64,000 nt of DNA, from positions 592,889-656,888 of the forward strand of contig NW_004457713.1 of the NCBI RefSeq assembly GCF_000203815.1, written 5' to 3'. Position numbers and translations under genes: made by a program. Position 1 is the first letter of the stretch. Every line of letters starts with the position of its first letter. Below, in pieces: positions 20,609 through 64,000 of this stretch. The notes under the pieces are model-generated. The model was given only the letters and a program-made list of their open reading frames with translations, did not search any database and was not told where the DNA came from. The stretch is from Cavenderia fasciculata (taxonomy: Eukaryota; Evosea; Eumycetozoa; Acytosteliales; Cavenderiaceae).

Positions 20609-23600
20609 TTATCTATGTCTTGACCATTCTTTTAAAGAAACTGAACGACTAAATCTAGATTTAAATGATTTGACTTGGTATTTATGTTTCTTGAGATAGT
20701 AGATGACACCGGCTGCGATAATGGCTGCACATACTACACCAACAGTGACACCGACAATGACAGCGGTCCAACTCTTCTTATCGATGGGGTCTTCGGTAGT
20801 TTCTTTTCTGTCGTATACGAGAACTGAAATATCGGGGTCATAGACAAATGATTCGATAAACGATGGGATGACGGTAGTGACGAGTGTACCATTGGTAGCT
20901 GGTGTGATGTAATGAGAGACACGCATTGGGAAGTTGTCTACGAGTACTCTGTTGATTAAACGACTGTATACTTGGTTACCGAGGTTATCGACCATAACTA
21001 AAGATGACATGACGGCACCATCATTAAATGTGACTTGGGTATCATTGCCAATATCTCCAACAAACGATGCTACGTGAAGAGTATTTTCGGTAGAGTTAAA
21101 CTCCCAACCTTGTACACGGAAACTGTACTTTAACGATCCAAGTTTGACATTGAATGTTTCACCTGCAAATGTTACTGGATAAGAGTCGACAGTGAGAGCA
21201 GCGTTTGAATTGGCCGATGGAATGTATTGAGAAAAGTTGACAGAAAGTAATCCGTCATCTGAAACATATCCAAAGAGTAGTTCGGTGAGTTCTTCTTGGG
21301 TGGTTGGGTGAATGACGGTAGACTCATTGTTGAGGATGAGTTTCCAGAGTGTTGTGCTTAGATCGACTTGCTCGACGACTGTGCCGTTCACGTCAACCTC
21401 TGTGATGGATTGCATAGAGAATGAGAGTGTGACGTACTTGTTTTCAATCGATACTTCAGTGTTGTTGGGGTTGACTGCAAGCTTGCTAAATTCGGGTGGG
21501 CTGCCACCAGTGGTAGAGTTGCCTCCCATGTTAAACTCGCATTGTGGACCATCGTAACCCTTGATACAGACACAATATCCAGACTGACACGTACCATTGT
21601 TGAGACAGGTGAGTGCGCAGGTAACAGGTCCGGACGAATTGGTCACGAGCACGATTTGAGGTGAGATGATGGGGTCGAAACGACGGTTACGCACGGCAAT
21701 ACGGACATTGTAGCCGGTACTGTCGACAAGCTTGTTAACGGTACACGAGGTGGTGGTAGAGACACAGGCAGAGCCCCAAGTCTTGTTGTCGTAGGAGAGT
21801 TGAGCTTCGTAGTAGGTGGCACCGGGGACACCACCAGTCGAGCTGGTTGACCAGGTAAAAGCGATACTTTGTTGGGTGGTGTTGGTCTGACTGGCAATAA
21901 TAACGCCTTCAGGAATTGGATAGGTTTGGAAGTTGACGACTCTGTTCAAAGATGTGCCGTCGTTGGCGAGATCGAGACGATAGGTGAATGCGTCGAGACT
22001 AGAGATGGGTTTGTAGCAGTTGGCAGGTGTCAAATGGTCGCAGAGCACCGCGTCGTTGACCGAGACGGTCCAGACTGTTTGACCTGGCACACCACCAGCC
22101 GTGACAATATCAACATAGATACCAGTTTCATTGCGTTGGTATGGTTCAAAGTTGGTGAGTGAGATGATGGGGTAGGTGGTAATCGGGAGGATGGTCTCTC
22201 TGGTCACTCCATCATTTGAAGTGACTGCACGGAATACAAAAGTGGTTGCAGGGGCAAGACCTGAAAACACGCACAAATTATTGAGACATTGTGTGTTGAC
22301 ACCGTTGACAAAGAGTTGAGTGACAGTGTCTACGGTTGGTGCACCGCCCGTTACAGTCAAATTGACAACAATAGTGGTAGTGGTGAGTTGGACAATATTG
22401 ATCTTGGGAGAGTTGATTGAGGGATAGGTAGTGAATGCGACTTGAGTAGTGATGGTCTTGTCGACGAGATAGGTGGCTGTGACGACAAAGTTGTACGTCT
22501 TGTTGGGTTGTAGTTGGGTGAGTTGGCAGGCAGACTCGAGTACGTCGCACTTGGTAGCTGCACCATCCAACGTGGTGAGGTAGGTGATGGGAGTGTCTGA
22601 CAAGACTGCTCTGAGTGGATAAGACAAGACGGCAGAGGTGGTCATGACTTGAGCAGTGTTGATAGCGATAGCTGCACCGTTTGGAAGGGTGAATTGACGA
22701 ACAAATGATGCAGACAATGAACCACGGGTAGCTGTAACACCAAGGTTGTAAGTGACTTGTGGAACCAATTCAGTAATGTTGCATGTGCTTAGAGTGGGTG
22801 GACAATCGACTCTTGCAGCACCATCAAGTGTAACAGCGTAGGATACAGCGGTATTTGCATCACCTCCAGTTGCAGCATAAGACACTTGTATCCAAGTGGC
22901 CGAATAATCAGTCACAACAACCGAGGGGATCTTGAATGCATCCAATGTCTTGAAGGTAGTGGTTCTAGACACCTTTCCAAGTGTTTGGGAAGCAGTCACT
23001 GTCAACAAATAGTCGGTCAATGGGACAAGAGTATCAATCACACAAGTAGACAATACACATCCAACCACTTGTTGACCATTCAATTCGTAGGACAATGTCC
23101 AAATATTTGGATCCAAATTGTAAGTTGGGTTGGCCGAGATTTGAGCAATATTCGATGTAACACCTGAAACTACAATGTTGAATGACAATGCAACATAATT
23201 AAATACTGGTGAAGAAGCCGAGGAAGTAGAATAGTTGGCAATGGCACGCAACTGATACCATGGATATGATTTGATCAATGGGACAGCAATAGAATTGGGA
23301 CTGGTCGATGTAACGAGTTTGTTTAAACCGTTATAAATCGAGTACTCGGTGTTGGCAAAATCACCACCAACCGAAGTTACAGTCACATACAATTTGTTGG
23401 CACTGCTATCAGTAGTGGCACTATTGATAACAACCGATTTGACCTTGCTGTATGTTGTAAATGTCGTGACTTTGGTTGGAGCCCATTCATTATTATTGTA
23501 ATTTCCAGTCACTGTAATAGTATTTACACTCTGTTCTTTTAATCCAGTTGCACTACATGATTGTCCAATTTGACAATTCAAAGTCATAGCATTATTCAAT

Positions 23601-26600
23601 AATAGAGAGTATTGAACATTCTTTAATGGTACCAAAGTTGTAAATACAAAATTTACATAATTAATATCAATCTTGTTTGTATTAATTTGAATTCCATCAA
23701 TTACTAAAATTAAAAAGAAAAGAAGATTAATTTAATTGCTATGTTTTTTTCTTTCTTTTCATTTCTTTTCTATCATCTTGTTTACATACCACTATCTGAA
23801 TGAACAGCGATTTCAGATTGAGCATTATCTTCATAATAATGTCCAACTACTACAATATCTATATCATTTCCACCAGTTTGGACGGTAGCAGTGTAACCGG
23901 TAGTATTAAAGACAAAGTCACCATCGACATGGACAGAGTAGACAATTGGTAATGAACCACCATCAATTAGACCATAGGCAACGGTTGCAGTGGTGGGAGT
24001 ATTACTAATCAAATAGAGACGAGTCAATGAGAATGGATAACTGGTGGTAACATCTGTTTGAGGAGTAGGGAACATATTTCCAGTGACATCAATACCTTGG
24101 AATCTAACGGCATAGGTGGTATTTAAAGTGAGACCAGTTACAACTACAGTTCCAACCAATTCATTTACTTGGAATGTTTTATAAAATGTACTAGTATACC
24201 AAACTCTATAACTATTAAATATATAATTTGATACAAAACTAACTTGGAAACTTGATGATGTTATATATGTTATTGATGATGTTACTAGAAAAATTAAATT
24301 AAAAAAATATTAATATTATTATTATTATTATTTCTTTTTTCTCTTACATTGAATATTATTAAATGGTAAATTTGGATTACCATATTCAATATCAATTTCA
24401 TTTTCTGCATGGACGAAAATGACAAAATAACCAATTGAAACTTCCATTGTACATTGGGTGGCTGGGGTTTGTTGACATTGTGGTACACTTACTCCATTGA
24501 GTTTAATAGAGTATAGGGTGGTAGTGGTTGGTGCACCGTATTGAGCAGCGTATTTTACACTGAGATGTGTATCATTGAGAGAGACGAGGGTGACCATTTG
24601 ACCAGCTGGGAAGTTGATGGATGGATAAGAAGTGACGACGATTTGAGAAGAGATGAGGTTGATTTGATTGTATGTTCCTTGGAAGAGGTATTGCGCAGAT
24701 ACTGTATAAGTGGTGCTTTCACTAACCAATGCCATCATTGAATAATCTGGATTGTCTGAATTCTCCAAATCAGAGACACCTGTAACTTGATAGTCGAATA
24801 GAGGGAATCTAGCTGGAACAATTTGAGATGGCACGGCTGAGAAATAGATGGTTCTTGAAAGTGCCAAATATTCAATGGTTTGGGTCAAGACATAGGTAGA
24901 GACGGAGAATCCAAACTCAAAGGAATCGATTTGGTTTTGGATGGTGATCATGACATCAATGATTTCCGATTGATTGGCTGTGATTGCACAGATACCCGAT
25001 ACTCCGTTACATTGGACAGCGTCTTGATACTTGAAAGTGTATGTTTTGGCGGCGGTTGGATTACTTCCAGTCAACGAGGCAAGGGTGACTTGGACCGATC
25101 CCAAAGCTGGATTGTAAACGGCAGCTGAAAAGGTGGCGTCCATGATACCGCGAGTAGTGGCGGGGGTAGTGGTAGTTTGATAGGTGTTGTCGGCGACAGA
25201 GTACATGACCACCTGGACAGAGTATTGTGTTTGTGGACTGAGATTTCTAATTTCACATGGTAGAGAAGTACATTTGTCTTGACCATCGACCAAAACAAAT
25301 GTTTGAATTGATCCAACCAACACTGGACTAGTAACAGCTTCAACGACGAAACCAGTTGCAAATGTAGTTATAGTTGGTACAACGGTAAATGGTTTTGGTA
25401 GAGTTTTGAATGTTGAGATGGCACCATCTTTTTGTTGATCATTATTCACGACAGAGACCGAGTATTCATAGGTTGTGTTGGCAGTAAGAGTACCGATGGC
25501 ACAAGTAGCACCACCTACACCCCAACAACCGATCGACTGTTGTCCATTCAAAGAGATATAGTATTTGCTACCTGCTCCTGAATTTCCAATTGGACAACCA
25601 CCAGTAGAACCATAGGACACCGATACAGAGTTGACCGATGGAGTAGTGGAAAACGCTGACAATTGAAGAATCAATGTATTGAATGTATTGGTAGACTGTA
25701 AAAATACGGTCGGTGGAACATTGACTTGGGAAATCTTGGCAAAGTAGGTGTATGGTGTACCCAATGTTGTAGTAATATTGACCACATTACCATTTTGAAG
25801 GGTTGTTGGATACCCTGTAAGTGAAAGACCATGTAATAATCCAAATGCATTTTGACTTGGTGAAATTGTAAATAATGTATATTCAGTAAACCAATTTATA
25901 CTTACAGTTGCTATAAAACAAATAAATTAGTATATTTGTATTTGTATTTTTTTTTTTTTTCTTACATACGTTGAGCAAAATTTGGTAAATAACGATCTAG
26001 AGTGAATACACTAAAGGTGTTTGATTGAGAGTTGACAACAACTTTATGGAAACCAAGGTAGGAGACTGGAATATTACATGATGCACTATTGCCAGGATTG
26101 TTCATGTTTTTACATGCAGTGAGAATGGCATCGTTGTAAACAACAGTGAAATTGAGTGGAAGAATGGATGGAGTGTTGAAAGTGACGGAAAGAGCAGTAC
26201 CAGAGTATGATCCTGGTGTGAGGACTGTATCTGTCCATTGTTGAGTCTTGAGTGTTGCAGTTGGACTGGTTTGAAGAGTAACTGACTGTGCATTGAAAAA
26301 TTCCATATCAAGAGAATAAGCTGAAGCAATATTCAAACCAGACATGGTACATGGACTTCCATAAACAACTGATTGACAAACAATACCTCCATTCAATTTA
26401 TAGGTTACAGTTGTTGGTACACCTGTTTGTAATGTGTATTGACCTGTAACTACCAAATCAGTTGGTGAAATTGAATTTATCTTTACATTTGTATATGCAT
26501 CTAAAAAGAAAGAAATAAAAAGAAAAAAGAAACGAAAAAATTAATATTATTATTATTAATAATTTTTTTGTTTTTTTTACATACGTTGAGTTAAGAATAA

Positions 26601-38592: not shown

Positions 38593-40718
38593 TTACAGTG
38601 CAGCATCTGGGGATGTGAATAATGGATTTTCACCGGCACCTCTGGTATTCATTTCATAGAGTGGGTTGGCATTGACAGATGACATCTTGGTCTCCTTGTG
38701 TTCCTTCCAGTAGTCGTAACCCTTCTTGCCGGCAAAGGCAAAGAGGGCGGCGGCGGCAGCACCACCGATGGCGATACCGGCGATGGCTGCAGACGAGATG
38801 ATACCACCCTTGGCAGCATCAGAGAGACAGTTGAAGGGAGTGGGACTTCGGTTCTTGGTGATACACTCGCCAGTCTCGGCATTACAGTATGCACGCTGAC
38901 ATTCGTCGTCTTCGGCGACACAAGTCTTGGGTGTGACGAGACATCCGATAGTCTTGTTGCAGGATGGGATGTTGCAGAGATCATCGCCGATTGGACAGAC
39001 GACGGGGGTGGCAATACATCCTTTTACCTTGTCACAGGCATAGACGGTGCAGAGGTCTTCTGGATCTTGCTCGCATACTACATCGGTTGTGAAACAACCG
39101 TTGACAACGCCGTCACCGGTCAAGGTCGAGTTACAAGAGTCGATTGTACAGACATTGTCGTCGTTACAGTCGACTGCTTCGTGGAGACATCCAGTCTTGT
39201 CGGCCTTGCACGAGTCTGTGGTACAGGCATTCTCATCGTCGCAGAGGAAGGTTGGAACGCAGGTCTTGACATCGTTGACAGGTTGGCAGGTAAAAGTGTT
39301 GCATGGGGTGGATTGAGCTGCACACTTGTCGACGACGACAAGGCTACCCGACTGCGAGCAGGTCGAGCTGATACAATTGTTGTTTTCCAAGTCCTTTGGA
39401 CAACACTGGTACTCGCATTCACCGGTATTTCCATTACATGTGCCGGTCGAACCACACAATGTGGCATTGGGTGGGGTGGTACAGGTCTTGGTGATAGTCT
39501 TGCAGTCGCCAGTCGATGCGTCGCAAGTAGCCGATTGACACTTGTTGGCTGGGTTGGTTGGTGTGCATGTCTTGGCAGTGTAGGAGCATCCAGTTAAAGT
39601 GTTGCATGGTTGAGCTACATGACACTTGGATGGTGGGTTATTACATTGTACTGGGATTGGTTTGCATTGTCCTCCAACATTACCCATGTTGAAACAGAGG
39701 TCGGCAGCATCAGCAGTAGCATTGATACGTTGATGAGTACAAGCCTCCTTCCAATTGTTTGGGTTGAGACCTGGAGCATTGGCAGGTGGACATGTATCAA
39801 TAGTACAAACATCATTATCATCACAGCCATTGTTATTGAAACAACATTCACCCTTTCCATTACAAGCACCACAATAATCTGTCGATGCACAGTATGGTTC
39901 AAAATCTGTTGTAAATTTCAATGCTGATGATGATGTATGTCTTTCACAAAAATAGAAATCAAAGTCATAAATGTTTCCCTTTAAAAAAGTGAAATATAAA
40001 GTGTAAAGTAAAAAAAAAGTGTGTATTAGTATTTGTTTGTTTGTTTTTTTTTTTGGGAGTCCATTCTTTGGACTTGGTTTTTTTTTTTTTTAATATTTAC
40101 AGCAACTAAACCTAAACCATTAACATTGATTGAACCATCAACACTACCATGTACACCACCTAAATCCATTACCAACTTGTTGTTGATAAAGAGGTAGACA
40201 TCATCATCACCGAAAAAGTCGAATTTACCTTGATTCTTGTACTTGAATTGAGCATTGAATTTGAGACAGAAATGGAAGTTTTCTCTGATACCTCGTGTAT
40301 CCTTGTCGTCACGTTTGAGTTCTGGATAGACGTCCCAACCGAGATTGTTGATGGGGAAGAAAAAAGAGTTGGCATAGACGTAACCTCTGGCAGTGTCGTC
40401 GTAGACGGCTTCGAGGTCTTGGACGATTTGGATGTTGACGTCATTGGTGGCTTGGAAGAATTGTGGGAATGTTGTTGTATTGTCGTAACATTTCTTTAGA
40501 TCCGATGATTGAGAGTTGAGTACTGGAATCTTGGTGGATGGGTTAAGATTACTTTGAATCAAGCCCTTGGTCACTCCACAGTTTGGCTTCTGGAAGTTGG
40601 TGTTCTTTAGTGGATGATGATCATAAATCGTAACAGTCACTTTTATACTATCTCTTTGTGCATTGGTCAATGCAATCAATAAAATGAAAGCTGATAAAAT
40701 TGTAAATAACAATTTCAT
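38593..40718 (-). CDS. Psi-family PA14/cysteine-repeat membrane protein A
   Basis: Two exons, 40718-40101 and 39978-38593, with a 122-base phase-0 intron; 667 residues. Signal peptide 1-20. Residues about 25-225 are a PA14/fibro-slime domain (VTVTIYDHHPLKNTNFQKPN, SQSSDLKKCYDNTTTFPQFF, FFGDDDVYLFINNKLVMDLG), which continues over the splice into NIYDFDFYFCERH. Then come many slime-mould cysteine repeats (CNDDNVCTIDSCNS, CNIPSCNKTIGCLVTPKTC), a TM helix at about 597-622 (IISSAAIAGIAIGGAAAAAL) and a 44-residue tail with NPLYE and NPLFT. In D. discoideum the secreted factor PSI-1 (PsiA family) induces prespore differentiation; the family also includes type I membrane proteins like this one. A ligand-binding surface role is inferred. 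It is followed by its close paralogue in the same orientation. Confidence 0.9.
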
Positions 40719-53401: not shown

Positions 53402-53819
53402 TCTATTTGATTTATTATCTCTTCTCTCTCTCTCTTTTTCCTTTTTTTTTTATCTCTATCTATCTCTCACTATTGATTGTTAAGATAGATGAATGTCTCG
53501 TTTTGAACCCAAAGTATGTTCAAGTGAGCTCGTTGCTATTTTTCGATCTATCAGATTTTTTTACAAAAAACTCGAAAAATGCTCGAATCACCAGGATCCT
53601 GTAAGACTTTTATACATTCCATTTTCTCTGATCCAGGTATACATCACTCTCTCTATATATATAAACATTCATAAAAAGAAATGAAATCGGTGTTTTTAAG
53701 ATATGGTTTTGTCCAATTTCAACCAAACCTACCAAAAGATAGCAACGACCAAGTACTATGTGTTCCACATAGTTTCGACAGCAAAAAAAAAGTACTGTCG
53801 ATAAATGTAAAAAGTTATC
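53402..53819. other. intergenic
   Basis: Promoter side of adhesin B and the 3' flank of the tRNA-Glu gene. It has T- and TC-rich runs at 53420-53470. No further gene recognised. Confidence 0.5.
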
Positions 53820-53890
53820 TCCCTTGCCGGGAATCGAACCCGGGGTGTCAGTGTGAAAGACTAAAGTGTTACCGACTACACCACAAAGGA
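53820..53890 (-). tRNA. tRNA-Glu (anticodon UUC)
   Basis: 71 bases on the minus strand. The acceptor TCCTTTG pairs with CAAGGGA (one G-T), the D-arm has the GTGTAGTCGGTAACAC form, the anticodon stem TTAGT/ACTGA frames the loop CTTTCAC with TTC at the anticodon, and the T-arm CCGGG-TTCGATT-CCCGG is perfect. A T-run follows the 3' end (53811-53815 on the + strand as A's), as expected for Pol III termination. CCA is not encoded. Confidence 0.95.
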
Positions 53891-53933
53891 ATTGAGTTGT
53901 TGTGTGTACAGATCACATTTTGGCCTATTTATA

Positions 53934-53947
53934 GGCCGATTGGCCCC
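53934..53947 (+). repeat. 14-base target-site duplication, proximal copy
   Basis: GGCCGATTGGCCCC, repeated exactly at 54707-54720; a shortened 11-base form (GCCGATTGGCC) is at 54971-54981. The proximal copy lies 44-57 bases upstream of the tRNA-Glu 5' end. Both distal copies directly follow A-tails, as expected for target-site duplications of non-LTR retroelements. Confidence 0.8.
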
Positions 53948-54706
53948 CAGTTTGGAATTTTTCTGTATAGAGAGAAAGAGATAGAAACCGAGATTACGTA
54001 TAGAGTACTATAGAACTTCACTCAATCATCAACTATCTTCAACTATCTTTTATCAAACATTACTATTTCTTTTCACACTCACTAAAAGACACAACTAATT
54101 GCCCTAGTGTGCCCCCTGGTTCAATTATTTATATCATTATCATTATTATAAATAAGGGGCGCGAACAAGTCAATACAGTTTGAAAACAGTATTCACATTA
54201 CTATTACAATTGAAATGAACATCATCAACATCTCATCAAAACATCAATCAACAACATAACAATACGAACAACAGAACGATATAAGATAGATAATCATGGT
54301 GTAGACACAACCACCAACCATTACTCGACACACACACATACATATGGATGGTGACACTGGGCACTCTCCCCAACAGTCACGATCTGGTCACTAATCTGAC
54401 AAAAGAACTATGGATCGTAACTCACAGAACCGTTCAGCCCCCCTCGATGCAACAGGTAAAGAAGCTTCCCGTCGTATTGATGAACAAACAGAACTAATAG
54501 CTCCCACCAAGACTTGCCATTTTTGCTTGGATGGAAATAGAACAGACATTTGGCACCCCAAAAAACAGATTGGACTTGCTTCTTCTTTGGAAACTCAGTT
54601 CCCATTGCTGGTCAAACAAAGACTTCAATCAATAAAACTTCGCAATCGAAAGAGTAGTGCTCCACCCTACAGGTGGATGCCACGAAATGAGATGCTTAAA
54701 AAAAAA
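53948..54706 (+). mobile_element. A-tailed non-LTR insertion next to tRNA-Glu
   Basis: 759 bases between the two perfect copies of the 14-base duplication and ending in an A run (54698-54706). It holds an open frame at 54410-54724 whose start codes a Ser/Asn/Arg-rich polypeptide with a CHFCLDGNRTDIWH element. This could be the start of a retroelement ORF1 or the body of a non-autonomous element; I do not recognise the protein. Upstream of it is a leader-like A/T-rich part with a GGGGCGCG patch at about 54157-54164. Bounded duplication and tail make the insertion itself well supported; the family assignment (TRE-like) comes from position. Confidence 0.65.
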
Positions 54707-54720
54707 GGCCGATTGGCCCC

Positions 54721-54970
54721 TTAGAACAAGCAACAATCCAAAACAATCCAACATGCTTGACACTATACAATAAGATACATGATCAACGTCCATAAAACAT
54801 GTATCATAGACATGGACAAACCCCCAGAACAAATTAACTTTAATTTTTCCTGAGATAATCTTTATTTCTTGCTGGTCAATTAAAAAGTATAATTAATAAA
54901 ACTTTGTAACTTCTGAGTACTACTCTTCCCGATAGGAGAGAACAGGAAAAGAATTACTTTAAAAAAAAAA
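54721..54970 (+). mobile_element. A-tailed 250-base element end (R1)
   Basis: Begins TTAGAACAAGCAACAATCC directly after the distal 14-base duplication, ends GAATTACTTT plus about ten A's and is followed by the third copy of the duplication. It is about 95% identical to 55726-55963 (R2). A 5'-truncated element 3' end is the simplest reading. Confidence 0.75.
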
Positions 54971-55963
54971 GCCGATTGGCCAGATCGTCAGGGGACCCAG
55001 TCGCTTCAATCTGTGTATCGTGTGGCAAAGATGAATCTTCCAAGCATTTGTTCTTTCAATACAAAGAGACCACACTACCAGTAAAGATACTGAAAGAGGT
55101 TACTTCTGCCAACAACATTACATCACCAGTTTGGGATATCACCCTCCTCAACCTCAAACAACCTCCAATGACTATAAACTTGATTGCTGCAACACTCAAA
55201 CGAATATGGTTCCGACGTAATGATCTACGTCACCAAAGAGATGAATTACTGAACAATATCTGCGAGCTAGATTGCTAAATGATATGCGACATATTATAAA
55301 AGTAAACTGGGACAAGACGTTAGAATTATGTAATCGATGGCATTTGGCTCTAATGAACCAAACCGACGAATCAGTAATACATACGATTACAGAACGAATA
55401 CAAACTATCATCCTTCGATTCTCCTCCAACTACAACCATCCTACTGTCTACAAGATCGCACTACCTAGTCATTTGGAGAGGTACAAGACTCTGCGTACAC
55501 TACATCTATAATCGATCACCTCAACCTCATTCCTCTCATCCTCCTCAACACCTTCATCATCTTCTTCTCTCTCTTCATCTATCAATAATAATATTAATAA
55601 TATAATAATTTACTAAATAATAATAATAACATAGAATAATTATATAACACAATATTACAGCCTATAGTGCTGAGAAAAAAAAAAAAAAAAAAAAAAAAAA
55701 AGCGATATCTTTAACCAATTTATTTTTAGAACAAGCAACAATCCAAAACAATCCAACATGCTTGATACTATACAATAAGATACATGATCAACGTCCATAA
55801 AACATGTATCATAGACATGGACAAACCCCCAGAACAAATTAACTTTAATTCTTCTCTAGATAATCTTTATTTCTTGCTGGTCAATTAAAATGTATAATTA
55901 ATAAAACTTTGTAACTTCTGAGTACTACTCTCTCCTATCGGAAAAGAATTACTTTAAAAAAAA
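54971..55963 (+). mobile_element. 5'-truncated TRE-like non-LTR retrotransposon with ORF2 end
   Basis: Starts with GCCGATTGGCC and then codes the end of a non-LTR ORF2: the zinc-knuckle-like CVSCGKDESSKHLFFQY (RT-associated CCHC/H form, last Cys replaced by Tyr), then LKQPPMTINLIAATLKRIWF and, after a frameshift near 55250, the last 75 residues through LRTLHL (stop 55511). A 4-base deletion relative to the second copy (61106-61476, minus strand) causes the frameshift, so this copy is dead. After the ORF come A/T-rich 3' UTR, 27 A's (55675-55701), a GCGATATCTTTAACC link and then R2 (55726-55963) ending in another A-run. The same order recurs at the second locus, so the A27 tract appears to be internal to the element. 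Confidence 0.8.
55726..55963 (+). repeat. direct repeat R2
   Basis: Second copy of the 240-base unit at 54721-54970; the first ~45 bases also occur inverted at 60859-60905. It ends in ACTTT plus A's, like R1. Confidence 0.85.
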
Positions 55964-55966
55964 GCC

Positions 55967-56228
55967 AGCACCAAAATCCAACCAAGTTTTGTGGGACACT
56001 AATAGTCATGAAGCAGCACTTGGACAAGTACCACACTCTATGATTTCTCCAAGGCGTTTGATTCAGTCTCTCACCTCGCCATCCAACGAACCTTGACCAA
56101 GATGGGTGCGCCACTGATCGTCAACGCTGTTATGTCCAAGTCCGTGTAAGAGTAGGAGTCTCGCTGTCAGAGCCACGAAGCAAGGCGATCCAATATCACC
56201 GACGCTATTTGCCCTCATCGCCATCTAA
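55967..56228 (+). pseudogene. non-LTR reverse transcriptase fragment
   Basis: Frame segments code LYDFSKAFDSVSHLAIQRTL, TKMGAPLIVNAV and, in another frame, RATKQGDPISPTLFALIAI, the RT palm motif region (D-x-SKAFDSV helix, then the QGDPISP.LF motif). The catalytic YxDD box is missing and the frames are broken. It is an older fragment than the neighbouring ORF2 end and is followed by unrelated sequence. Confidence 0.8.
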
Positions 56229-56834
56229 CTATTATCAATAAAGACTGGGGACTATCCGACCGTGTACCAAATAGCCACGCATGTATGACGACGTGGTACA
56301 AGGCTGAGTATTTAAGAGAACTCGTAGAGAGAGATAGGTTGTTCATTCGTTAGTCACTATTTCCCCACATATTACTATTGTTTTCTATCACTTGTAATCT
56401 CTACCTTTGCTAGTTTTAGTAGTAGTAGTATTTTGTTTGTTCATTGATTGTTCTTGTATCTTTTGTTGTTGTTGTTGTTGTTGTTGTTTAAGTTGTTCAG
56501 AAGTTTGTCTGGATTGAGATACGAAACCTATCATCTAGGATTTATGAGACCAAAACTCGAGCTTTTTTCGTTTTTCAGTTGTTTCCTAATTGGGGTTGGT
56601 GGTTCCTAAAGAGAGATAAAATACCACAACCACCAACTCCAATTATGCTGTGAGATATATTGTTGTAGATCAAGATCATCTTCCATCCAATAAACTAGAC
56701 AGCTACTCTCCCAGATACATCAAATTTAGAGAGAAATCAATTAAAAATAATGCATACAAGAGAGGATTTAAAATAAAAAAAAAATAAAAATTCCAAAAAG
56801 AGGAAAGGAGTACAATTGTTGGTGTCAACATTCG
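56229..56834. other. intergenic with CTG/TTG run
   Basis: Contains (GTT)n at about 56460-56487 and no coding frame I can support. The first 120 bases may be retroelement remnant. Confidence 0.45.
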
Positions 56835-60501: not shown

Positions 60502-60858
60502 AAAAAAAACAACAGCAATCAATTGGATTTTAATCATTGTATCAATCAAAATTTGATACAATTCTAGACAGTTAAATGAGTAAAAATTATAAAAAAACAA
60601 CAAACTTGAGCCCGCACAATTCTATCAGGTCTGATGATTTTGACTTTTCACAAATCTTTGTTTATTTTTAAATTAATGTTTTGTTGTTTGATAATGGTTA
60701 GGATTAGTTTGGAAAGAGGGAATGCGGTAGGGCAGCTAGATTACCCAAATGAAAGAGAATTTGCTAAAGTGTGATATCAGTTGGAGATGAGTGGCAGACC
60801 ATCGATCAGATTGACATTTAGATAGCTTGGAAGTTTAAGATATTCTAGATGGAATATG
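60502..60858. other. intergenic
   Basis: Nothing I can assign. It includes an A-run and a less A/T-rich part at 60700-60850 that could be older retroelement sequence. Confidence 0.4.
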
Positions 60859-60905
60859 GTTTTGGATTGTTGCTTGTTCTAAAAATAAATTGGTTAAAGA
60901 TATCG

Positions 60906-60941
<36 letters not shown>

Positions 60942-61476
60942 CTCACTAGCACAATAGGCTATAATACTGGGTTGATATAATTATTATTATTCTTATTATT
61001 TAGTGAATTATTATATTATTAATATTATTATTGATAGTTGTAGAGAGAATAGAAGAGGATGGCGGTGGTGAAGAGGATGAGAGGAATGAAGCTGAGGGTG
61101 AACGGTTATAGATGAAGAGTACGCAGAGTCTTGTACCTCTCTAAATGACTAGGTAGTGCGATCTTGTAGACAGTAGGATGGTTGTAGTTGGAGGAGAATC
61201 GAAGGATGATAGTTTGTATTCGTTCTGTAATCGTATGTATTACTGATTCGTCGGTTTGGTTCATTAGAGCCAAGTGCCATCGGTTACATAATTCTAACGT
61301 CTTGTCCCAGTTTACTTTTATAATATGTCGCATATCACTTATCAATCTAGCTCGCAGGTATTGTTCAGTGAATGGTTCATCTCTTTGGTGACGTAGATCA
61401 TTACGTCGGAACCATATTCGTTCTAGTGTTGCAGCGACCAAGTTTATAGTCATTGGAGTTTGTTTGAGGTTGACGC
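60859..61476 (-). mobile_element. second 5'-truncated TRE-like ORF2 end
   Basis: Minus-strand copy of the element at 54971-55963. It codes the last 115 residues of ORF2 without a frameshift (stop at 61106), from LKQTPMTINLVAATLERIWF to LRTLHL; the final ~75 residues are identical to the other copy. Then come the A/T-rich 3' UTR, a 35-base A-tract (T's at 60907-60941), the GCGATATCTTTAACC link and the first ~45 bases of the R unit, where similarity stops. Homology to the other copy begins abruptly near 61476, marking the 5' truncation. The 5' end points toward the tRNA-Ile, as the other copy's 5' end points to the tRNA-Glu. Confidence 0.8.
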
Positions 61477-61841
61477 AAATATGGCACCAACTCCGAAATT
61501 ACCATACTTGCGGTGAAACCTTAAGCCTTGGGTGCGTCCAAGACCGACTGCCGCTCTCAACTCTCGCGCCGATTTACTCCCCATTGTGGACACTCGTCTT
61601 TACGTGTTGCATATTGTATTTGAGATGTCAGATGGCTTTCTATCGCGACGGCCCAGTAGGTCCTCCACTACCTTCCCGTTACTTGTTGCAGTCTGGCTAC
61701 CCAATCTCCTGCTGAGAAGGGGAAACTAACCCGGTCATCCTTCCGTGGGGGTGTCCTGTCTCTAGATCCCTAGAGTCGGATGGTTTTTCTCCTCAATCCC
61801 CCCAATTGTGTCAAGTTAAACGTTGGCGCCAAAGGTAAAGT
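61477..61841. other. GC-rich island
   Basis: About 365 bases near 50% G+C in a window that is otherwise mostly 25-35%. Open frames are short and cross-strand, and I recognise no protein or rRNA. It lies between a retroelement 5' end and tRNA genes and may be a non-coding RNA, a SINE-like unit or foreign DNA. Confidence 0.45.
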
Positions 61842-61921
61842 TCGAGGGCAGGATTCGAACCTATGACCTTTACGTTCCCGGGGTAGCACACTCCCGACTC
61901 ACTTGCCACGCCATGCCCCGA
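61842..61921 (-). tRNA. tRNA-like sequence (degenerate or unusual)
   Basis: On the minus strand, TCGGGGCA at the 5' end pairs with TGCCCTCGA at the 3' end over 8 pairs with one bulged T, and a perfect B-box GGTTCGAATCC lies at 61851-61861. A D-arm-like GGC...GTC pair can be drawn. The anticodon stem is imperfect and no anticodon can be assigned with confidence. It lies 55 bases from a good tRNA-Ile in divergent orientation. It may be a tRNA pseudogene or a tRNA-derived SINE head. Confidence 0.35.
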
Positions 61922-61976
61922 TGGTGAAAATTGGGGTCAAAACGACCAAATTAGTTAATGAGAACATCTAAAAATT

Positions 61977-62049
61977 GCTCGTTTAGCTCAGTCGGTAGAG
62001 CACGGTGCTAATAACGCCGCGGTCGCAGGTTCGATCCCTGCAATGAGCA
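61977..62049 (+). tRNA. tRNA-Ile (anticodon AAU)
   Basis: 73 bases. The acceptor GCTCGTT pairs with AATGAGC and the discriminator is A. The D-arm is AGCTCAGTCGGTAGAGC, the anticodon arm CGGTG-CTAATAA-CGCCG has AAT at the anticodon, and the T-arm GCAGG-TTCGATC-CCTGC is perfect. No intron. T-runs follow at 62061-62067. Confidence 0.96.
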
Positions 62050-62112
62050 ATAATAATAGTGTTTTTTTCTGTGCCGAGGTTTTCTCGTTGGCCTTTTTTT
62101 TTTGTTCTTTCT

Positions 62113-63200: not shown

Positions 63201-64000
63201 TTATTTTTTTTTATGATTTTTGGGGTTGTTCTTCAACTGGTATTCATAGGCTTCCACGAGTGATTTAGTCTTGTTGTAAGCCTTGAGAACGACCTCATGT
63301 ATCCAATTGTTGTGGTCTTCATCTAGTCCATCATACTTTACCAAGTATTCGATTCTAGATCCGCGTCCATACTTTTGGTTTCTTTTCCCAATGATTTCCA
63401 CAATGTCTTGTACGTCAGTGTCGACGCCATCTGCATCCATAATATAAATGTCTGATACATTTACTGTACGGTTTTGACGATCGCCTTTACGGTTGTTGAT
63501 TTTGATTGATACATTGGTTGGGCTGATAATCTTTGTAACTTTGAAAGGACCAGCATACTTTGATCTCAACTTGTAGTCGTTTTCGTTCAGTTCTGTTTTA
63601 TGTGTATCTAGAACAGCCCGCTTGACTTTAACCAGGTCACCAATCTTGTATTCGCATGACTTGGCTCTTCCTTTATCGTATTGTATTTGATTTCTGATCT
63701 GAGCTTCCAGCATGTTTGATTTCGCCATTTGGCGATAGGTTTCCATATTACGACGATAGTCGCTGAATGGCATGCTCAGTGCATTCCATGGCATAATCGG
63801 TTCGCGATTTGATTGGGTGTATAGCCGGTGCTTGTGTTGATATTATTGTTAATAATCGCTTCGATTATTTGGTAGTCCCTTGCCCATTGGTTTTTTTCAT
63901 TAGACATTTTTCGGATTGCACTCAAGATTTGCTTGTTGATAATCTCGGTCTGTCCATCAGCCTGGGGCCGATGGGGTTGAGTCATTTTTAGTTGAGTACC
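63201..64000 (-). pseudogene. Ty3/gypsy integrase C-terminus with chromodomain, frameshifted and partial
   Basis: The frame entering from the right edge codes TQPHRPQADGQTEIINKQIL, the conserved 'HPQ.DGQTE..N' part of the gypsy integrase core, up to GYTPNQIANR at about 63805. There the frame shifts by one base and continues as MPFSDYRRNMETYRQMAKSN, the GPY/F-type segment KLRSKYAGPFKVTKIISPTN and a chromodomain (EYLVKYDGLDEDHNNWIHEV). Stop at 63201. Chromodomain-bearing Ty3 elements (skipper type) are known in Dictyostelium, where one lineage targets tRNA surroundings. The frameshift makes this copy probably inactive; the rest of pol is outside the window. The chromodomain is assumed to guide integration by binding methylated histone. 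Confidence 0.88.

Follow-up and report, generated by a model that had tools for sequence, protein, structure and literature searches.

Stacked TRE5-type insertions upstream of a tRNA-Glu gene in Cavenderia fasciculata and their probable origin by serial integration at a fixed distance from the gene

In the present study, we asked how several retroelement inserts came to lie one behind another upstream of a single tRNA-Glu gene in the genome of Cavenderia fasciculata, with almost the same short target sequence repeated between them. Within the window, i.e. the whole stretch of 64,000 nucleotides that was analysed, this locus very probably represents at least three TRE5-type non-LTR insertions upstream of one tRNA gene (Table 1), and, with the same high confidence, serial re-insertion at a fixed distance from the tRNA explains the stack. 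Inserts 1 to 3 adjoin one another and point, in identical orientation, away from tRNA-Glu. The initial annotation had described two copies of the target motif, a trimmed third copy, an A-tail before each distal copy and stretches of 759 and 250 bases between the copies; the coordinates and lengths were borne out, and A-runs of 9 and 10 were found. The location given for the proximal copy is also correct, although its distance of 44-57 bases upstream is actually -43 to -56, a one-base counting difference. The left edge of the third target copy marks the nick of insert 2, 1 bp off that of insert 1, and its right edge marks the second-strand joint of insert 3, 2 bp off; across the stack, the readable first-strand nicks (inserts 1 and 2) are 1 bp apart and the second-strand joints of inserts 1-3 are 0-2 bp apart. 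The claim of one shared duplication therefore holds in that the same slice of flank was used, but its reuse was near and not exact. In an exact search of the 31.0-Mb, 21-contig genome, GGCCGATTGGCCCC had two matches, both at this stack, whereas GCCGATTGGCC, with one mismatch or fewer, had four matches in the window versus 0.07 expected (four were reached in 0 of 100 shuffles), three of them exact and all in the stack and one inexact at 38986.

Table 1. Features of the tRNA-Glu stack and of the neighbouring tRNA-Ile array (positions in the window)
Feature	Position	Strand	Remark
tRNA-Glu (anticodon ttc), target gene	53818..53891	-	5' end at 53891; ARAGORN
TATTTATA motif	53926..53933		between tRNA-Glu and nick site
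Proximal target copy, GGCCGATTGGCCCC	53934..53947	+	-43 to -56 from tRNA-Glu 5' end
Insert 1 (innermost), N-family element	53948..54706	+	9-A tail
N-family open frame	54410..54706	+	99 codons, enters A-tail without stop
Second target copy, GGCCGATTGGCCCC	54707..54720	+	left edge, insert 1 nick; right edge, insert 2 second-strand joint
Insert 2, 5'-truncated TRE5 3' end	54721..54970	+	10-A tail
Third target copy, GCCGATTGGCC	54971..54981	+	
Insert 3	54982..55963	+	C-terminal ORF2 part, 3' region and A-tail
GCC, then older degenerate fragment	55964..56330	+	
Second array, upstream of tRNA-Ile	60856..61918	-	S head, TRE5 ORF2 end/3' region and cut-short 3' end
TRE5 ORF2 end/3' region	60949-61473	-	joined to S head
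S head	61476-61918	-	443 nt; part of tRNA-Ile composite
tRNA-Ile	61976-62050	+	

The inserts differ in kind. Insert 1 is an internally deleted copy of a family, herein called N, of ~920 bp, whose members share their 5' start and, ahead of the A-tail, their 3' end; the 759 bases of insert 1 consist of N positions 2-218 joined to positions 388-920, with the deletion of ~170-185 nt located at 54164. A spliced intron was ruled out for this gap because GT/AG ends are absent. N is a non-autonomous family, separate from that of the 250-base unit, and its copies at other loci carry different flanks. The 99-codon frame of N gave no Pfam match at E up to 1, and when an autonomous parent was sought by protein, the 30 genome matches listed looked like N copies or fragments. 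The family follows the TRE5 target rule, with a nick at 43.7 +/- 0.9 bp from the tRNA (n=11) and no reverse transcriptase of its own seen, and the piece annotation places no TRE5 3' segment in N, one chimera excepted; N was presumably moved in trans by TRE5 enzymes. In the second layer of locus L026 (C18_72989), this chimera joins bases 1-32 of N to a portion of the TRE5 3' end. It hints either at a 3' end formerly common to N and TRE5 or at an origin of N by template switching.

Insert 2 (the 250-base unit) derives from a TRE5-like element, of which it forms the 3' end; 50 genome matches to it were listed. About 40 genome matches begin at its first base, and the unit was considered as a SINE; this start is only the edge of the query, and the SINE reading was dropped because 27 of the 30 copies that were read reach further upstream, past an internal A-run. 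The description of the two stretches as different inserts is right as to their distinct sequences, but both appear to belong to a single TRE5 system. Insert 3, which extends to ~55963, beyond the inserts described at first, comprises a CxxC-containing C-terminal part of ORF2 (without a relevant Pfam match), a 3' region with an internal A-run, the TRE5 3' end at 55709-55955 and an A-tail; the A-run near 55676 was rejected as an A-tail, since it lies within the TRE5 3' region. Only GCC is kept on the distal side, indicating that the duplication of insert 3 has been eroded or deleted, and the GCC at 55964 is possibly an eroded target copy. In the older outer fragment, positions 56030-56222 are 76-79% identical to seven other places, and a reverse transcriptase-like match (RVT_1, E=0.015) falls below the curated cut-off. 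This match and the CxxC-containing part are the only ORF2 evidence in the stack, all of it in fragments. Among the other loci, extreme 5' truncation is seen at L014 and L032, whose first spacers carry, behind the first target copy, very short extra inserts of TRE5 3' end (roughly 10-14 and 25 bases) plus A-tail. A search for the 5' ends of long TRE5 copies yielded L083, which appears 5'-truncated beside tRNA-Lys, with no obvious duplication, and L085, which has several open frames near tRNA-Leu and no match to the four reference pieces.

A composite of a further kind lies upstream of tRNA-Ile in the same window. Its S head, with 31 genome matches listed, carries near its start GGTTCGAATCC, which we take to be a pol III B-box-like motif and which is perfect in 20 of 22 copies, the other two being without the start. 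A search of Rfam for a tRNA match to the S head gave none at E up to 10, the reference S head contains no run of four T, and a T5 run is located ~230 nt before the 3' end of the S reference copy. The composite may be a tRNA-gene-targeted SINE or the published Df_TRE5-A.2. In Spaller et al. 2016 (PMC5006619), Df_TRE5-A.2 is given as 1275 bp long, in 20 copies, 31-98 bp upstream of tRNA genes; in the longest form of the composite, S, O167 and the 3' end together make ~1270 bp (estimated from coordinates), and by this agreement in length the two are probably the same. Two other frames of the window were also seen. First, a frame at 63204-63842 (minus strand), situated ~1.2 kb downstream of tRNA-Ile, carries a chromo domain (Pfam Chromo E=1.7e-5, at cut-off). 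It resembles the integrase end of a Skipper-type LTR element, and retroelements may thus flank tRNA-Ile on both sides. Second, in a large frame at 20612-23731 (minus strand), a fibronectin type III domain was recognised, together with a sub-threshold match to ComC supersandwich.

To place the stack among other loci, 82 loci (many overlapping) and the window were merged into 45 regions, in which the four pieces and the tRNAs were annotated; the loci are the best matches to three queries, not an unbiased sample, and 46 matches of a further listing lie outside it. Piece-O matches that started beyond position 590 with <90% identity were dropped before the counts. This gave 54 arrays, 40 of which begin within 130 bp of a tRNA; four of the 40 were dropped because an A-run was absent, leaving 36 first-tier insertions for testing. 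In the 30 that were readable, the first-strand nick was 44.2 +/- 1.4 bp from the tRNA (range 40-47), and the duplications were 10-19 bp long (mean 13.4); a readable duplication was absent in the other 6 of the 36. By family, alongside the value for N, the nick was at 44.2 +/- 1.6 bp for S (n=15), 45 for T (n=2) and 46.5 for O (n=2). The score used for calling duplications was reached in 50 of 1440 comparisons against all 40 flanks, true pairs included. All 41 element segments within 130 bp of a tRNA, counted without a layout filter, lie upstream and in opposite orientation. Three features of TRE5 were thus found, namely insertion ~50 bp upstream, opposite orientation, and an A-tail with a duplication of ~10-16 bp. 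Copies of the elements behind the 759- and 250-base units, for which the initial annotation had suggested a search near other tRNA genes, have other flanks elsewhere in the genome. The sequence at the nick varies from locus to locus. In 12 of 38 flanks, the motif TATWWA begins in the bin at distance 33-40, versus 0-3 of 38 in each of five other eight-base bins; such a placement would be in line with TBP, as part of TFIIIB, being bound immediately inside the nick.

The stacks were then compared. Twenty arrays had two or more inserts as called by script, and 16 of them, with usable flank, provided 22 internal junctions, a count that leaves aside five further junctions in 4 arrays without usable flank. 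The spacer matched the flank of its own tRNA at 19 of the 22 junctions, versus 19 of 708 control comparisons with other isotypes. The spacer sequences of the other stacks differ, each drawn from the tRNA flank of its own locus; the three junctions that did not match (two at C1_2104261 and one at C4_761880) have gaps of >100 bases. One more shared spacer was seen at L084 (tRNA-Val), where the outer spacer is more eroded. Layer order was followed by divergence, pieces of 50 or fewer compared columns being dropped. In 19 of 24 adjacent pairs, divergence from the family was greater for the outer insert (one-sided binomial p=0.003), and in the other 5 it was greater for the inner copy; without the pairs at C1_1265755 and C1_2104261, whose weak outer matches may not be true layers, the count is 17 of 22 (p=0.008). 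The median divergence was 1.17% in tier 1 (n=46) and 2.1% in the outer tiers (n=23; Mann-Whitney p=0.0004), although the T yardstick mixes subfamilies and some tier-1 values reflect subfamily, not age. From insert 1 to insert 3 of the tRNA-Glu stack, the values are 1.13, 1.25 and 3.64%.

Herein, we propose that pol III factors on the tRNA gene (TFIIIB, according to published TRE5-A work) would hold the element endonuclease at a fixed distance, so that it would nick ~43-44 bp from the tRNA 5' end. The A-tailed RNA would be copied from this nick, and second-strand joining 10-19 bp further out would duplicate the target. Since the tRNA and the proximal target copy would survive every event, the next element would land between the tRNA and the previous insert, and older inserts would be pushed outward. 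Such an insertion leaves a slice of the same flank between the units, and the sharing of the target sequence is thus partly forced by geometry. What was observed directly comprises the positions, the A-tails and duplications, the orientation, a nick distance that hardly varies and a divergence that rises outward on the whole. The two parts of the model first suggested for this locus agree with these observations: repeated targeting of one tRNA site fits a nick distance constant to 1-2 bp and spacers that match the flank, and the outward displacement of older inserts fits the greater divergence of most outer layers.

Several other explanations have to be weighed against serial re-insertion. First, the site cut first might be remembered, through sequence preference or a persisting nick, so that later insertions reuse the same bases. 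Within stacks, all 11 readable adjacent pairs had nick offsets (an interval measure) of 0-1 bp, with a mean of 0.73; however, this comparison excluded layers whose spacer no longer matched, offsets between loci were nearly as small (mean 1.12; resampling 0.18), exact reuse was not commoner within stacks (27% vs 39% between loci), and the nick sequence itself differs between loci. A ruler therefore suffices, and a memory of the cut site is unlikely as well as unneeded. Second, the inserts are adjacent and in the same orientation, as would be expected if several RNAs had been copied in a row during one integration to give a multi-part insert. Such template jumping, named at the outset as the alternative, leaves no flank between units, whereas each of the 14 testable junctions with gaps of <100 bases contains flank; the layers, moreover, differ in divergence, mostly in the order expected from age, and we regard this course of events as very improbable. 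Third, tandem duplication or repeat recombination might have copied one insertion together with its target. A longer tRNA flank does recur inside the arrays at C12_1151153 (tRNA-Leu; L060/L067) and C4_809828 (tRNA-Met; L030/L048), so that locus duplication probably occurs in this genome, and these may be duplicated tRNA loci that were hit separately. In the tRNA-Glu stack, however, the recurring flank spans just 11-14 bp, the three inserts differ in sequence or in truncation, and each unit has a distinct truncation point and A-tail, which leaves duplication with hardly any likelihood there. Finally, the target motif adjoins element copies three times in the stack and could on this ground be taken for an internal part of one repeat family, the outcome that would have told against the initial annotation, but the 14-mer is locus-specific, with no further exact copy genome-wide, and the same elements show other sequences at that joint elsewhere, so that this explanation may practically be set aside.

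Serial re-insertion at a fixed distance from the tRNA is consistent with what has been reported for related elements. In the D. discoideum literature (PMC5391098, PMC5911963, PMC9012585), TRE5 elements are placed 47 +/- 3 bp upstream of tRNA genes in opposite orientation, TRE5-A has an A-tail and duplications of 10-16 bp, TRE5-A.2 is described beside TRE5-A.1 as a non-autonomous partner moved in trans, and the C-module of TRE5-A is reported to be essential for retrotransposition. TRE-TRE tandems at one tRNA, without integration into each other, have also been described in that species. The elements studied here resemble TRE5-A.1 and TRE5-A.2 in upstream position, opposite orientation, A-tails, duplications and tandems, and pile-ups of TREs at tRNA genes are already known in kind. 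In Dictyostelium (Cavenderia) fasciculatum, Spaller et al. 2016 (PMC5006619) describe Df_TRE5-A and Df_TRE5-B upstream of tRNA genes as mostly partial elements, with 7-56 copies per family. Going by these descriptions, the families found here presumably correspond to the published ones, although the tabulated distances of 31-98 bp across the Df TRE5 rows are wider than our nick spread and may measure another edge of the insert. An N-like family was not recognised in that table. Likewise, among the titles retrieved on SINEs and on stacked non-LTR inserts at tRNA genes, which included few subscription papers, none was recognised as pointing to a dictyostelid element like N or S. What is less familiar is the N family, the order of the layers and the neighbouring composite with pol III-box-like motifs.

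N differs from D. discoideum TRE5-A in one further respect: the C-module of TRE5-A is reportedly essential, whereas N shows no TRE5 3' segment (the one chimera excepted), a possible counterpart of the C-module, and yet inserts at the same distance. If N is moved by TRE5 enzymes, it would question the need of the TRE5 3' end for targeting. As a tentative proposal, somewhat short of likely, the TRE5 machinery might be a near base-pair ruler that accepts both N RNAs, which have no TRE5 3' end, and an S composite headed by pol III-box-like motifs, in effect a tRNA-gene-targeted SINE, and the piles might be archives, ordered so that relative age can be read from the distance to the tRNA. Stacked inserts at a fixed site would then provide relative dates without a molecular clock, and the duplications within them record the position of the first-strand cut. 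A static genome could thereby test the TFIIIB-ruler model for TRE5 and be used to read the order of element waves.
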